DNA of 34,385 bases from Candidatus Aminicenantota bacterium (GCA_026991555.1 JALXBI010000115.1:1-34385); one strand, 5' to 3'. Positions 20,330 through 30,639 are shown, counted from the stretch's first letter. Notes: generated by a model not told the origin, from the sequence alone. Numbers and translations: made by a program.

Positions 20330-20589
20330 AGAACCCTCGGCACAACGAAAAATCCGTCCTTTATTTCCGGCGCCAGGGAAAGGAGGCTTTCCCTTTCCTT
20401 AAAAAGGATAACCCTATCTTCTCTGGCCAGGAGGGATAATCCCGGAGGATAAAAGGCATATTCCTGATTTAACTCAAGGGACTGAAGCTTTCCTACCCAT
20501 GAGAATATGCGACCCAGCTGGGAGGCCAGCTCCTCGTCTTCCTCTATCCTCAGGAGCTTGAAGGATTCACTGGCAGGTCTTCTATTCAT
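20326..20589 (-). CDS. gatC: Aspartyl/glutamyl-tRNA amidotransferase subunit C
   Basis: Small scaffold subunit of the GatCAB complex, 87 residues. The C-terminus APEIKDGFFVVPRVL is the family signature, while the N-terminal helical region (LLRIEEDEELASQLGRIFSWVGKLQSL) is divergent. It overlaps DUF4388 by eight bases upstream and gatA by four bases downstream, so expression is coupled. Confidence 0.9.
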   Translation of the reverse strand: MNRRPASESFKLLRIEEDEELASQLGRIFSWVGKLQSLELNQEYAFYPPGLSLLAREDRVILFKERESLLSLAPEIKDGFFVVPRVL

Positions 20590-21130
20590 TCTCCAGAGTT
20601 ATAAGGCCAGCGGTAATGAGCTCATAAAGGATTTTGCCCACTTCAAATACCGGAAGGCGAACTTCCTTAGCTATTTCCTTTATGTTCCTCTTTCCATCCA
20701 CCTTGGAAAGAACCAGCCACATGGCCGGGGTGAGGGTAATTTTCCTTTTGTCATTTAAGTCAAAAATCACAAATTTGGGAACTGCCTGAACCGATTTTAT
20801 CTTTCTCTGAAGAACCTTCCACTCGTCAAGTCTCCTGGCAGCCTCCATCATAAGGGATGCGTTGGATTTTTTTATGCTTCTCTTGGGGGGGGGCACATTT
20901 GGCTCAAACACAAACTCCCCCTTTGACCAGGGAGCAATTTTATATACTGCAAATTCTCCCTCTATATTTCCCACTTCGGCGTGAACTATCTGTCCATCCT
21001 CAAGATAAACATAACCTATTTCCTCCTCGTCCTCATTTTTAAGGACGAACCTTCCCGTTTTCCTTTGCATGCTCATCACCTGAATGAGGTCGGGAAGTTG
21101 AAGGTCTTGAAGGGAACCTCTCATTGCCAT
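20582..21130 (-). CDS. DUF4388 (PATAN-type) domain protein
   Basis: 182 residues. The N-terminal DUF4388 domain shows its standard features: GSLQDLQLPDLIQVMSMQRKTGRFVL, then YVYLEDGQIVHAEVGNIEGEFAVYKIAPWSKGEFVFEP. A second region (about 115-180) ending in VDGKRNIKEIAKEVRLPVFEVGKILYELITAGLI looks like a winged-helix. Such proteins are usually adaptors in signalling systems of Acidobacteria, Myxobacteria and relatives, often with receivers and kinases; the kinase with a receiver-like domain at 25481 is the only candidate partner here. GGAGG lies nine bases before the ATG. Encoding directly upstream of gatC is unusual. Confidence 0.85.
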   Translation of the reverse strand: MAMRGSLQDLQLPDLIQVMSMQRKTGRFVLKNEDEEEIGYVYLEDGQIVHAEVGNIEGEFAVYKIAPWSKGEFVFEPNVPPPKRSIKKSNASLMMEAARRLDEWKVLQRKIKSVQAVPKFVIFDLNDKRKITLTPAMWLVLSKVDGKRNIKEIAKEVRLPVFEVGKILYELITAGLITLENE

Positions 21131-25480: not shown

Positions 25481-28357
25481 ATGAAGAAAGTCCTTTTGGT
25501 GGATTACGATGAGAATCATTTGAGGGAGCTCAGGAGAATTCTGGAAGGATTTGATGTGGAGGTGGAGGAGGCGAAAACCGGCACGGCGGGATTTGAAAAA
25601 TTGAAAAAGGGAGAATATTCCCTTGTAATAGCCTCCACAATATTGCCTGGAATCAATGGGTTTGAACTGACCAGAAAAATAAGGATTGAGCTTGGAAAGA
25701 GCAAGCTCCCGGTCATACTTGTTTCCTCAGTTTATAAGGGGGCCCGGTATAAATACGACGCCCTTCATGTTTACGGGGCGGACCATTTTTATGAATTCCC
25801 CTTGAATGAAAAGGAGTTTCTCTCTACCCTTAAAAAATACATACCTGAAAAGGCCCCTACCACCACCATGAGGATGGAGACCGTCTCGGAAAAATCCCCT
25901 GTGGGGATAGAGGAGTCTGAACCTCTAATCACCACCGATGAACTTTTCGGGGATATACTTCAGGAAGTAGAAAAGGAGGTGGGGGGTAAAAAACAGCAGA
26001 AGTTTGAAGAACCAGGACCAGGGGAGGAGCCCACTACCGAGGTGCATAGGGAAGTCCCTTCTGAAGAGTTTAAGAAAAAGGTCCAGCCCGATGAGCTGCT
26101 TAAAGATATCCTGAAGCCCAAGTCTGAGAAGGGGAAGGCCTCACGAAAGAGAGAAGATTTCATAGATAAGATTCTGGAAGAAACCCTCTCGGGTATAACT
26201 GGCGGAAAGGACTCAGGGGAAAAACCGCATGAGAAGCCCGGGGACAAGCAGGAGAGTGCGGAAAAAGCGACTCCTCCAGTAGAAGAGGTAGTGGTAAAGG
26301 AGAAGCCGGAAAAACTTAGTCCCTCTAAGGTCCCTGGCGTAAGGAAAAAGGAGGAGACGGGACCCGGGGAGGTTCCTGAACCTTCTGCCGAGGAGCCAGA
26401 GGAAGGAGTAGGGGAATTAGGGGAAATCCTGGAAGAGGAGCCCTTTGGGCCTTTAGAAGAACAGCCGGTTCTTGGCGAATACATTCTCCTTGAAAAAATA
26501 AGCACCGGCGGAATGGCTGAAGTATACAAGGCCAAGAAAAAGGGAGTTGAGGGCTTTGAAAAGATTGTAGCCTTAAAAAAGATTCTTCCCCATCTGGCAG
26601 AGGATGAGGAATTCATAGAGATGTTCATCGATGAGGCGAAACTGGCCTCCAAATTGAATCATCCCAACATAGCCCAGATTTACGACCTGGGTAAGATAAA
26701 TGGCTCCTACTTCATAGCCATGGAATATGTCCTCGGGAAGGACCTTAGGACTATTCTCAGAAAAATAAAAAAGGAGAAAAGACCCCTTCCTCCCATAGAA
26801 ATTTCCTCGTATATAATAATGAAAGTGGCCGAGGCCCTGGATTACGCCCACAGGAAAGTTGACGAGAACGGAAAACCCCTCAACATAGTGCACAGGGATG
26901 TGAGTCCCCAGAACATACTCATATCCTACGAGGGGGAGATAAAATTAGTGGACTTTGGAGTGGCCAAGGCCTCAATAAGGGCCCATCATACTGTGGCAGG
27001 TTCACTGAAGGGAAAGCTTCTCTACATGTCTCCTGAGCAGGCCAGGGGGGTGAAAACCCTGGATGGAAGGTCCGATATTTTCTCCTTAGGTGCTGTTTAT
27101 TACGAGTTGGTTACCGGAGAAAAAGCTTTCATGGCTCATTCCGAAGCTGAGGTTCTGGACAGGGTAAGGAAAGGAAAGTTTAAACCCCCCAGGGCCATCC
27201 GTCCAGACCTTCCCGTGGAAGTGGAAAGAATAATAATGAAGGCTATGAATCCTGACCCGGCCAAGCGATATCAGAGAGCCTCCGAGATGAGGAATGATAT
27301 AGAAAAATTTCTGCTTTCTTATAAAGGATATATCCCCAGCGCCAGGGATGTGGCGGAGTTTATGTATAGCTTGTATAAAGATGAGATAAAAAAGGCCGGG
27401 ATTGATGTCCAGATACTCAAGGCTCCCAAGAGGAAGATAAAGGTGGAGAAGAAGGAAGAAACCGAGGAGAAGGTAGCTGAGAAAAGGGAAGTGAAGGTGC
27501 CCAGCTTCGGGATAGCCGAGGAGGAAGAGGAAAGGAAATCTAAAATACTTCCCATGATTCTTGTGGTGGTGTTGGTAGTTATTCTGGGAGGAGGAGTCTT
27601 CCTCTTCCTGGGAAAGGGAAAGAAAACCCCACCGGCACCAGTAAAGAAGGAGGAAGCCGTAAAAGAACAACCTTCCCCACCTGTAGAGGAACAGGCCGTT
27701 CCGCAACAGGAGCCTGCTTCCCAGGAACAGGGCACCCAGGCTCAAAATGTTATCCCGGAGACCCCTCAGACCCCGCCCCCAGCTCAACAACCTGCCCAAA
27801 CCCAGCCCTCTCCGTCACCAAAACCCAAACCTGCTCCGAAAACTACCAAGAAATCCCCTGTTACTGTAAAGAAAACTCCCACGAGGAAGCCATCTCCCAG
27901 GCCTAAACCACAACCCAAGCCTACCACTCCCGCTGAACAAAAACCCCAGCCGAAGCCTCAGCCAAATACACAGGAGGTTAAACCGACTCCTCCTAAACCG
28001 ATACCCGCTCCCAAACCTCAGCCCCAGACCCAGCCTAAACCTCCTGCCCCCAAGCCGCAGCCTAAACCCCAGATAAAAGAGGGGGATGTCGTTCCATATC
28101 CTCTTCTGGATAGCAAGCCCAGGCCGATAAAGACCGTAGCTCCTACTAAACCGAGATTTCCCAAACTTAGTGGTATCGTGTTTTTAAGCGTTCTCGTAGG
28201 ACCTGACGGAAAAGTGGAGCAGGTGAAATTAATAAGGGGGATACACCCCAGATATGATGAGCAGGCGGTAAAGGCGGTGAAAAAATGGAAGTTTACTCCG
28301 CCTATAAAACATGGTAAAAAGGTCCGCACCTGGACCACTATAACCATAAAATATTAA
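25481..28357 (+). CDS. Pseudo-receiver / Ser-Thr protein kinase / TonB C-terminal fusion protein
   Basis: 958 residues. Residues 1-125 are a receiver-like domain with the acidic DYD start, but Ser52 replaces the phospho-Asp (IASTILPG) and Phe106 replaces the conserved Lys (EFPL), so it cannot use normal phosphotransfer. An acidic linker runs to about 325. The Hanks-type kinase (331-610) has STGGMAEVYKA, Lys366, HRDVSPQN (471-478), DFG (491-493) and SPEQARG, all intact. One transmembrane helix lies near 688-712. A Pro/Lys/Gln-rich linker with PQPKP repeats (about 715-865) would span the periplasm, and a TonB C-terminal domain (867-958, with VGPDGKVEQVKLI and AVKKWKFTPP) ends it. It could couple an outer-membrane event to cytoplasmic phosphorylation. 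No ExbBD or receptor gene is nearby. Confidence 0.9.
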   Translation: MKKVLLVDYDENHLRELRRILEGFDVEVEEAKTGTAGFEKLKKGEYSLVIASTILPGINGFELTRKIRIELGKSKLPVILVSSVYKGARYKYDALHVYGADHFYEFPLNEKEFLSTLKKYIPEKAPTTTMRMETVSEKSPVGIEESEPLITTDELFGDILQEVEKEVGGKKQQKFEEPGPGEEPTTEVHREVPSEEFKKKVQPDELLKDILKPKSEKGKASRKREDFIDKILEETLSGITGGKDSGEKPHEKPGDKQESAEKATPPVEEVVVKEKPEKLSPSKVPGVRKKEETGPGEVPEPSAEEPEEGVGELGEILEEEPFGPLEEQPVLGEYILLEKISTGGMAEVYKAKKKGVEGFEKIVALKKILPHLAEDEEFIEMFIDEAKLASKLNHPNIAQIYDLGKINGSYFIAMEYVLGKDLRTILRKIKKEKRPLPPIEISSYIIMKVAEALDYAHRKVDENGKPLNIVHRDVSPQNILISYEGEIKLVDFGVAKASIRAHHTVAGSLKGKLLYMSPEQARGVKTLDGRSDIFSLGAVYYELVTGEKAFMAHSEAEVLDRVRKGKFKPPRAIRPDLPVEVERIIMKAMNPDPAKRYQRASEMRNDIEKFLLSYKGYIPSARDVAEFMYSLYKDEIKKAGIDVQILKAPKRKIKVEKKEETEEKVAEKREVKVPSFGIAEEEEERKSKILPMILVVVLVVILGGGVFLFLGKGKKTPPAPVKKEEAVKEQPSPPVEEQAVPQQEPASQEQGTQAQNVIPETPQTPPPAQQPAQTQPSPSPKPKPAPKTTKKSPVTVKKTPTRKPSPRPKPQPKPTTPAEQKPQPKPQPNTQEVKPTPPKPIPAPKPQPQTQPKPPAPKPQPKPQIKEGDVVPYPLLDSKPRPIKTVAPTKPRFPKLSGIVFLSVLVGPDGKVEQVKLIRGIHPRYDEQAVKAVKKWKFTPPIKHGKKVRTWTTITIKY

Positions 28358-28371
28358 AGGAGAGGTGAGCC

Positions 28372-28584
28372 ATGGCATTACCAAAGGAACAGGAAGCCTT
28401 TTACAAACAAACCCTGGAAAATGCAAAGAACGAAATCAAGAGGATTGAGGCTGAGATGGAAAGGGAAGTGGCGGAGTTCAAGGCGAGGATGGCAGAGCTG
28501 CAAAAACAAAAGGAGGCGGTGAGGCAGATTTACGACGGTGCAGCTGCCATTCTCGGCGTGCCCAACGAATTTGAGGAGGAGTAA
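28372..28584 (+). CDS. Small coiled-coil protein of unknown function
   Basis: 70 residues, almost entirely one charged helix (residues 5-52, heptad-like KNEIKRIEAEMEREVAEFKARMAELQKQKEAVRQIY), with a short tail ILGVPNEFEEE. GGAGAGGTG lies before the ATG, a good ribosome binding site. It follows the kinase by 14 bases and precedes accD by 13. Not recognised as any named family; it could be a partner or substrate of the kinase, by position only. Confidence 0.7.
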   Translation: MALPKEQEAFYKQTLENAKNEIKRIEAEMEREVAEFKARMAELQKQKEAVRQIYDGAAAILGVPNEFEEE

Positions 28585-28597
28585 TCTTTAATCGCTT

Positions 28598-29380
28598 ATG
28601 TGGACCAAATGCAATGTATGCAAAAGAATAGTCTATAAGCAGGACATAATCGATAATCTTTACGTATGTCCTCACTGTGGCTTCCACTTTCGCCTTACCG
28701 CCCGCAAAAGGCTGGAATTGCTTTTTGACGATGGCAAATACCAGGAACTTTTTCCCAATCTTATATCCCAGGATCCCTTGAATTTTGTGGACAGGAAGCC
28801 ATACCCCCAGAGACTTAAGGAAAGTATGGAAAAAACAGGGGAAAAGGAGGCTGTGGTGGTGGCCCGGGGCAGCGTAGGTGAAATTGAGGTGATAGCTGCG
28901 GTGATGGAGTATTACTTTATAGGGGGATCCATGGGTTCCGTGGTGGGTGAGAAAATTACCCGGGCAGTGGAGACTGCGCTTGAGGAAAAAATTCCCCTTG
29001 TCATAGTTTCGGCCTCGGGAGGAGCGAGGATGATGGAGGGAATCTATTCCCTTATGCAGATGGCAAAAATTTCCGCTGCCCTGAAGAGCCTTCACGAAGA
29101 GGGCATCCCCTATATTTCAGTGCTTACCAACCCCACCACGGGAGGAGTTACCGCCAGTTATGCCATGCTGGGGGATGTGAACATAGCTGAGCCCCAGGCT
29201 CTTATCGGGTTTGCTGGTCCCAGGGTTATTGAGCAAACCATAAGGCAGAGGCTCCCTGAGGGTTTTCAGAAGTCGGAGTTTCTCCTGCAGCACGGCATGC
29301 TGGACATGGTGGTTCACCGCAGGGAACTTAAAGACACCATTGTTAGACTTCTCCGCCTCTTCCTCAACCGTCCCAGTTGA
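28598..29380 (+). CDS. accD: Acetyl-CoA carboxylase carboxyltransferase subunit beta
   Basis: Part of the enzyme producing malonyl-CoA for fatty acid synthesis; 260 residues. The N-terminal zinc ribbon has C5, C8, C24 and C27 (KCNVCK, VCPHCG). The carboxyltransferase core shows SVVGEKITRAVE, IVSASGGARMMEG and NPTTGGVTASYAMLGDVNIAEP. The ATG at 28598 is the only usual start, since an in-frame TAA lies nine bases before. Its nearest GGAG is about 16 bases upstream, so translation may depend on coupling to the small gene before it. accA is not in the window. Confidence 0.95.
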   Translation: MWTKCNVCKRIVYKQDIIDNLYVCPHCGFHFRLTARKRLELLFDDGKYQELFPNLISQDPLNFVDRKPYPQRLKESMEKTGEKEAVVVARGSVGEIEVIAAVMEYYFIGGSMGSVVGEKITRAVETALEEKIPLVIVSASGGARMMEGIYSLMQMAKISAALKSLHEEGIPYISVLTNPTTGGVTASYAMLGDVNIAEPQALIGFAGPRVIEQTIRQRLPEGFQKSEFLLQHGMLDMVVHRRELKDTIVRLLRLFLNRPS

Positions 29381-30639
29381 ATTACCGCCAGGCCCTGTCC
29401 TATTTAGAATACCTTCAGAATTTCAGGATAAAATTGGGGCTGGAGAGAGTCCAGACCCTGATTCAGACCCTGAATTTTCCCAATCGGGATTATTATTATG
29501 TAATTATCGCAGGAACCAATGGAAAGGGTTCGGTGGGGGCCTTCCTTTCCTCCATCCTTTCCCGCCGATATAAGGTGGGCTTTAACTCCTCCCCCCACCT
29601 TATAACCCCCAGGGAGAGGATAAGGATAAACGGGGAGGCAATTTCCGAAGAAAAATTTGCCTATTATATAGGAGAGGTGGCAGAGGCCTCTTCTAAAATA
29701 AATTCCCTTTTCCCTCATCCCATAACCTTTTTTGAAACCCTTACTGCTGCAGCTATGCTGGCCTTCAGGGAAGAAGGGGTGGAAATAGGAATATTTGAGG
29801 TGGGGATGGGGGGAAGACTGGATGCCACCAATGCCTATCCTGCGGACCTCAGCATAATAACCGAGATAGGGCTGGACCATACCGGACATCTCGGCAAAAG
29901 CGAAGAGGAAATAGCCCGGGAAAAGGCCTTCGTCATAAGAAGGGGAAGGGCTGTTATAGGAACCCGCAAGGAGAAACTTCTTCCCATTTTCCTTAAAAGG
30001 GCGGAGGAAAAGGGGGTGGAAGCTAAGGTGGTTTTCCGAGGGGATAATTTCAAACAGCTTTCCCCATCAAAGTTTCTATACAGGGGAGAGGAGGAATACA
30101 TACTGGAGCCATCCTTAGCCGGTCCCCATCAGGGACAGAACGCTGCCATAGCCGTAGCGGCCGCTGAAGAGCTCTCCCGCCAGGGTTTTTCCCTCACCAA
30201 GGAAGATATTCTTAAAGGAATATCCAAAGCCTTCTGGCCAGCCCGGTTAGAGAAAATTGGAAACCTGGTCCTGGACGGGATGCACAATTGTCATGCCTCC
30301 TTTCCCATAAGGGAATATCTTGCCCAGAGCGGCCCCTGGGACACCCTGATTTTCTCCCTCCTAAGAGACAAGGATTATAGGTGCATAGGGAGGAACATAT
30401 TCCCCTTCTTCAAAACCATAATCCTCACCGAAGCCCCATCCTACAGGAGGCTCCCTGCCCATCATCTCCTTCCCTTGGCTTCAAGGTATGCCGAGGTCAT
30501 TGTTGAGAGGGAGCCGCTTTCCGCTCTTGAAAAGGCCAGGGAGATTTCCGAAGGTAAAATCTTGGTGGCCGGCTCCCTTTACACCGTGGGTAAAATAAGG
30601 GAGAGGCTAATGAAGGAGGGAAAAATAGATAGATTATGA
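29377..30639 (+). CDS. folC: Folylpolyglutamate synthase / dihydrofolate synthase
   Basis: Adds glutamate to dihydropteroate or folates; 420 residues. The P-loop is GTNGKGS at residues 46-52. SSPHLITPRERIRING, FETLTAAAMLAF, EVGMGGRLDATN and DHTGHLGKSEEEIAREKA are standard Mur-ligase-type motifs. The usual DGAHN is DGMHN here. The start is TTG at 29377, overlapping the accD stop as TTGA; accD-folC adjacency is common. Its end overlaps rlmN by four bases. Confidence 0.95.
   Translation: MNYRQALSYLEYLQNFRIKLGLERVQTLIQTLNFPNRDYYYVIIAGTNGKGSVGAFLSSILSRRYKVGFNSSPHLITPRERIRINGEAISEEKFAYYIGEVAEASSKINSLFPHPITFFETLTAAAMLAFREEGVEIGIFEVGMGGRLDATNAYPADLSIITEIGLDHTGHLGKSEEEIAREKAFVIRRGRAVIGTRKEKLLPIFLKRAEEKGVEAKVVFRGDNFKQLSPSKFLYRGEEEYILEPSLAGPHQGQNAAIAVAAAEELSRQGFSLTKEDILKGISKAFWPARLEKIGNLVLDGMHNCHASFPIREYLAQSGPWDTLIFSLLRDKDYRCIGRNIFPFFKTIILTEAPSYRRLPAHHLLPLASRYAEVIVEREPLSALEKAREISEGKILVAGSLYTVGKIRERLMKEGKIDRL

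Follow-up and report, generated by a model that had tools for sequence, protein, structure and literature searches.

A family of predicted transmembrane Ser/Thr kinases joining a pseudo-receiver to a TonB-type C-terminal domain in Acidobacteriota

Bacterial pseudo-receivers (PsR) have the PF00072 fold without the residues for phosphotransfer, the second acidic, metal-binding position (DD2) being the one most often lost (PMC12632262). Their mode of action without phosphorylation was listed as an open question in a 2025 review, the text of which mentions neither TonB nor Acidobacteria (PMC12632262). Among systems that pair a Ser/Thr kinase with a degenerate receiver, the nearest analogue that we found is the fungal kinase Rim15; many species have Glu, Ala or Gly in place of its receiver Asp, and some lineages lack the receiver altogether (PMC8510515, PMC12632262). 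Two further systems bear on the protein described here: the PASTA kinases PknB and StkP, with a Hanks-type cytoplasmic kinase, one transmembrane (TM) helix and an extracytoplasmic sensor, and the energy transducer TonB of the TonB-ExbB-ExbD system, in which the Ser-X3-His of the SHLS motif contacts ExbB (PMC12215075).

We analysed a stretch of 34,385 nucleotides from Candidatus Aminicenantota bacterium (GCA_026991555.1 JALXBI010000115.1:1-34385; hereafter the window), which encodes a 958-aa protein with elements of each of these systems (Table 1). Its N-terminal receiver resembles the PsR in its fold and in the loss of DD2, but it is fused to a transmembrane Ser/Thr kinase, and in relatives to a TM helix and a TonB C-terminal domain (TonB_C). 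In Rim15 the receiver is C-terminal, and that kinase is not described there as a TonB-bearing membrane protein; the resemblance is an analogy between architectures that are not homologous. Compared with PknB and StkP, the window protein has a TonB C-terminal domain on a Pro/Lys arm in the sensor position and adds an N-terminal pseudo-receiver with a long linker. It shares the C-terminal domain fold and the Pro/Lys periplasmic arm with TonB, but lacks the His of the SHLS motif and carries a kinase and a receiver N-terminal of the TM helix, the true TonB being separate. No description of a kinase-TonB fusion, or of this architecture in Acidobacteria, was found in the openly accessible literature searched.

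Table 1 Features of the kinase gene and its downstream neighbours, with positions counted from the first nucleotide of the window.
Feature	Position	Strand	Basis
Whole gene: pseudo-receiver, linker, Ser/Thr kinase, TM, Pro/Lys arm, TonB_C	25481..28357	+	Pfam, orthologues
Pseudo-receiver, residues 1-125 (Pfam 4-115), CheY-like fold	25481..25855	+	Pfam, model, PDB matches, dN/dS
Tyr9 at second acidic (DD2, metal-binding) position	25505..25507	+	Alignment
Ser52 at phospho-acceptor Asp position	25634..25636	+	Alignment; same-genome receiver control
Phe106 at conserved Lys position (Lys retained in most orthologues outside the window's family)	25796..25798	+	Alignment
Linker motif 1, TTDELFGDILQEVE (151-164), [TS][STA]-x-[DE][IL]FGD[ILV][LI]	25931..25972	+	Motif counts; only in kinase-bearing forms
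Linker motif 2, IDKILEETLSGI (228-239)	26162..26197	+	Motif counts
Hanks-type Ser/Thr kinase domain (335-598); K366, E385, HRD 471-473, DFG 491-493, T504	26483..27274	+	Pfam, alignment
Single TM helix (689-711), without TonB His	27545..27613	+	TM prediction, TM comparison
Predicted periplasmic arm rich in Pro and Lys (712-862; 151 residues, 47 of them Pro and 24 Lys)	27614..28066	+	Composition; fast-evolving
TonB C-terminal domain (863-958; Pfam 895-958)	28067..28354	+	Pfam, model
70-aa predicted coiled-coil protein, 14 bp past the kinase stop, behind AGGAGAGG	28372..28584	+	ORF, homologues; no Pfam family
accD (acetyl-CoA carboxylase beta), conserved neighbour	28598..29380	+	Next gene, same strand
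Mur-ligase-family gene, folC-like by synteny, conserved neighbour	29377..30639	+	Synteny

Read from its ATG start, the protein matched Response_reg (PF00072, E 8e-12), Pkinase (E 4e-40) and TonB_C (PF03544, E 3e-14) in Pfam, and its one predicted TM helix is preceded by about 690 predicted cytoplasmic residues. AlphaFold2, run on orthologue alignments, predicted a CheY-like fold for residues 1-125 (pLDDT 97.1), resembling many solved receivers in a PDB comparison, and a TonB C-terminal fold for residues 863-958 (pLDDT 92.6), the top PDB match of which was the FoxA-bound TonB C-terminal fragment (6i97_D). A preliminary description of this DNA had proposed the order receiver, kinase, TM helix and TonB, with the TonB domain on a long Pro/Lys linker; Pfam, the TM prediction and the models of both ends bear this out. 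A chance fusion or an assembly chimera was ruled out, since the fusion recurs in independent genomes.

By alignment, the receiver has lost three active-site residues: Tyr9 stands at the position of CheY Asp13, and Ser52 and Phe106, both correctly named in the preliminary description, replace the phospho-Asp and the Lys. Tyr9 is an addition to that account. As a control, all 19 distinct other receivers of the same genome retained the phospho-Asp and the Lys, and 18 of them DD2, that column being unaligned in the remaining one. The Pfam match, the modelled fold and the loss of one or more of the five active-site residues indicate that this is a pseudo-receiver within PF00072; given its residues, Asp phosphorylation should be unable to operate it. 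Loss of Asp and of DD2 is the general rule, whereas loss of the Lys is restricted, within the class, to the window's family (7/27). The phospho-site lacks Asp in 53 of 55 kinase-fused receivers, comprising 27/27 from the class (16 Ala, 7 Ser and 4 Glu) and 26/28 scored at the phylum level (Ser, Thr, Asn, Arg, Tyr or Glu; L184, a second class paralogue, is among the 28). A search for homologues in which the Asp was restored gave two of these 28 (L151 and L170), with DD2 missing in both. The observations named in the preliminary description as refuting it, a missing receiver or TonB fold or many relatives that had regained the Asp, were thus looked for and not seen. Relatives without the kinase carry Glu at the site in 18/18 cases, as do stand-alone relatives in 34/35, all 34 thus without Asp.

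This distribution bears on the idea that the chemistry was switched, the fused Ser/Thr kinase phosphorylating the residue that replaced the phospho-Asp, which is Ser or Thr in the window's family and in many others, and the kinase-less forms having fixed the mimic Glu. Ser or Thr occupies the site in 24/55 kinase-fused receivers and in 0/53 kinase-less or stand-alone ones, where Glu is found in 52/53. The pattern is, however, phylogenetically confounded, since the Glu forms all belong to one class and related fused members also have Glu; Ala (16/55), Asn, Arg and Tyr occur at the site as well, and the site itself, lying where a buried strand ends, is a poor substrate for a kinase. We give the idea little credence.

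Pairwise Nei-Gojobori dN/dS values against a same-genus orthologue, for which some synonymous values were near saturation, rose from about 0.015 in the kinase domain to 0.03 in the receiver and 0.09 in TonB_C, with the first linker and the arm evolving freely. Judged by these rates, strong purifying selection acts on the dead receiver, which is not decaying. That it is a neutral relic carried on an ordinary transmembrane kinase would accord with the loss of three catalytic residues and with replacements that vary by family, the dead site having changed at least nine times on a quick kinase-domain tree. Against such a relic stand the receiver's dN/dS, its intact modelled fold and the retention of pseudo-receivers as stand-alone proteins, and we consider it extremely unlikely.

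The kinase domain of the window protein retains the Gly-loop, K366, E385, HRD, DFG and the activation-loop T504. Across the class, the Gly-loop, the VAIK Lys, the Glu, HRD, DFG and an APE-like motif were invariant in 29/29 orthologues, and TonB_C was present in 25/25 C-termini. The closest solved kinase structures were PknB and StkP. Pfam detected no PASTA repeats in the window protein, and the PASTA-kinase equivalog model scored 283 bits, below its cut-off of 450. With the kinase as query, orthologues scoring above 300 bits were found at 29 loci among 60 relatives searched, paralogues remaining below 190 bits, and the record titles of the class members named Candidatus Aminicenantes and Acidobacteria. 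A kinase profile located the orthologue in 114 of 396 sampled Acidobacteriota genomes, mostly metagenome-assembled, at essentially a single copy each. Most phylum-level loci examined encode the receiver, kinase, TM helix and TonB_C in that order, so the architecture sketched in the preliminary description recurs across Acidobacteriota and Aminicenantota. In a quick tree, the kinase domains formed one clade separate from four paralogues of the same genome. From this distribution, the kinase family proves to be old and conserved in Acidobacteriota/Aminicenantes. In a pattern-limited, receiver-based contig scan, the matches from outside Acidobacteriota were without this kinase. Five Desulfuromonadales/Geobacteraceae proteins of about 670-700 aa (L132, L136, L141, L143 and L146) had a related N-terminal receiver and were unmatched by the kinase profile.

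The C-terminal domain was compared with dedicated TonBs. The TM core is without His in all 80 proteins examined. A TM His is present, by contrast, in the dedicated TonBs of the same genus and family (L203, L205, L226 and L227) and in most of the remaining TonBs of the phylum, for example in LSIVFHLIII; in those of the same genus it belongs to the Ser-X3-His of the SHLS motif. Because this His is missing from the family and present in ordinary TonBs of the same genus, canonical TonB energy transduction by the kinase family is judged unlikely. Three same-genus genomes encode separate TonB-ExbB-ExbD sets elsewhere, so the possibility that the kinase serves as the cell's only TonB was rejected. 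The window's own assembly (G000) lacks a dedicated TonB and has no more than a weak MotA/ExbB-type match, which most likely reflects an assembly gap, since the same-genus genomes carry these genes. The kinase gene showed no linkage to exbB or exbD; ExbB/ExbD matches lay on other contigs or far off, and its neighbours in the window are accD and folC.

The preliminary description had laid its emphasis on TonB's passing of energy, tied here to phosphorylation. In a working TonB of this sort, ExbB and ExbD would move the arm and so power receptors in the outer membrane, while the kinase would modulate or report the process. The modelled TonB fold, the long Pro/Lys arm and the TonB-dependent receptors encoded in the genome are what such a protein would need. 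However, the 80 TM cores lack the His that TonBs of the genus and phylum possess, sister genomes have a separate set, and about 690 cytoplasmic residues precede the TM helix; a working TonB is in our estimation quite improbable. Overall, the earlier account stood as regards the dead receiver and the intact kinase, the latter judged from the catalytic motifs in the class orthologues. Its suggestion that the TonB-type domain is a trans-periplasmic sensor or anchor of the kinase also gains support from the comparisons. Its proposal that energy passing by TonB is tied to phosphorylation found no support, in view of the missing His and the separate sets. Outside its scope lay the downstream coiled-coil gene, the phylum-wide conservation and the kinase-less variants.

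The reading that we favour, with slightly more belief than doubt, is that of an envelope kinase resembling PknB, with a periplasmic sensor or anchor of the TonB type and a receiver that controls it independently of phosphorylation. The TonB domain would occupy the place of the PASTA repeats in PknB-type kinases, the receiver and kinase probably being cytoplasmic and TonB_C periplasmic. The Pro/Lys arm would in principle be long enough to span the periplasm with the TonB fold at its tip. Arm and TonB_C may dock to an outer-membrane or cell-wall partner; the TonB-dependent receptors of the genome make a docking target possible. Docking or tension would then alter the state of the kinase, probably through dimerisation. 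Because it is strongly conserved despite its dead site, the pseudo-receiver may be a protein-binding or dimerisation module that controls the kinase, probably with the co-encoded coiled-coil protein. Pointing to the sensor-kinase reading are the kinase motifs, the TonB_C in 25/25 C-termini, the selection on the protein, the single clade, the partner gene, the receptors and linker motif 1; pointing away from it are the loss of the kinase in several Aminicenantia families, the absence of TonB_C from one family and the faster evolution of TonB_C than of the kinase. If the TonB domain is the sensor, the protein would be a diderm counterpart of the PASTA kinases able to reach the outer membrane.

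The gene following the kinase encodes the predicted coiled-coil protein, an ORF smaller than the usual 100-aa filter and without a Pfam match above cut-off. Homologues occupied the same position at nearly all kinase loci with enough flank, in the class and across the phylum, including those of the family lacking TonB_C, and the dN/dS of the gene in the same-genus pair was about 0.004. It is, on this conservation, a new and undescribed candidate partner conserved across the phylum. From gene spacing and shared strand, we infer that kinase, coiled coil, accD and folC form an operon in the window's genome. Downstream accD and/or folC were found at the majority of class loci and at roughly half of those from the phylum; because the linkage is present in many loci, not all, we take it as a hint alone, which weakly suggests that the outputs include membrane-lipid synthesis. 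The linkage may be inherited gene order. On the other side of the kinase gene, about 4.3 kb upstream, the window encodes a 182-aa protein (20582-21130, minus strand) with a DUF4388 and a weak winged-helix match, and a relative is similarly placed in same-genus loci.

The sequence that links the receiver to the kinase varies freely except for two short conserved motifs. The first, motif 1, was matched in 53/69 kinase-bearing proteins (0.02 expected from shuffles, a figure that expresses conservation and is no independent test of discovery, since the motifs were derived from the sequences on which they were counted) and in 0/18 kinase-less ones. Motif 2, around LEETLSGL, was found in 43/69 and 5/18, respectively. 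The Thr or Ser three residues ahead of the first acid of motif 1 was invariant in the 54 tabulated matches and may either cap a helix or be phosphorylated. As motif 1 occurs only alongside the kinase, it may be a docking or autoregulatory segment.

Five Aminicenantia families (f4, f7, f8, f10 and f88) lack the orthologous kinase and have instead receiver-TM-TonB_C proteins of about 520-790 aa (L249-L262, L265, L266, L268, L093 and L102), most of them with the same coiled-coil gene downstream. Many kinase-lacking Aminicenantia genomes add a stand-alone pseudo-receiver of about 150-190 aa directly before accD-folC; those with Glu at the phospho-site include many among L073-L107, together with L263:2912-3448 and L264:3798-4256. 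In family f31, the kinase, TM helix and coiled-coil gene are kept and TonB_C is missing. In the receiver tree, which is poorly resolved because the domain is short, stand-alone forms clustered together and kinase-less forms clustered with one kinase-fused member. These variants indicate that the modules can be lost separately, and the persistence of receiver, TM helix, TonB_C and coiled-coil gene after loss of the kinase indicates that phosphorylation is dispensable for part of the protein's role.

The kinase-less forms that keep the coiled-coil gene, and the pseudo-receivers retained beside accD-folC even as stand-alone proteins, are what would be expected of a trans-envelope scaffold or tether, with pseudo-receiver and coiled coil inside, TonB_C holding on to the wall or outer membrane outside, and the kinase as an added regulatory module dropped in some lineages. 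The kinase, however, is the slowest-evolving of the domains and occurs in every phylum-level relative, although these were retrieved with a kinase query, by which kinase-less forms outside the class would be missed. Moreover, f31 retains the kinase without TonB_C, and the loss of motif 1 from the kinase-less forms implies that function probably changed there. A scaffold of this kind has some substance but is, in our judgement, unlikely. The sensor-kinase reading can be extended to a kinase that would read outer-membrane receptor or wall engagement via its own TonB domain, without ExbBD or an anti-sigma factor, and would signal through the phosphorylation-independent receiver and the coiled-coil partner to envelope-lipid synthesis; that this constitutes a hitherto undescribed, Acidobacteriota-wide route we hold to be improbable.

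As far as the comparisons reach, the coiled-coil gene, both conserved linker motifs and the deletion variants appear to be newly found here. One phylum offers many natural variants of one pseudo-receiver, which is joined to a kinase, joined to TM-TonB_C alone or encoded as a separate protein next to accD-folC; they span Ser, Thr, Ala, Glu, Asn, Arg and Tyr at the dead site and come with a conserved candidate partner gene.

Degenerate kinases were also seen. A second receiver-kinase protein of 593 aa in family f3 (L184:96-1874, G008 contig C12) is without TM helix and TonB_C, and its kinase is without HRD and DFG. The window's genome encodes a second kinase-TM-TonB_C protein of 627 aa (L005:1306-3189, G000 contig C34), a pseudokinase in which HRD is HNL and DFG is NFG; TonB_C ORFs of 604-633 aa, near it in length, occur in genomes of the same family.
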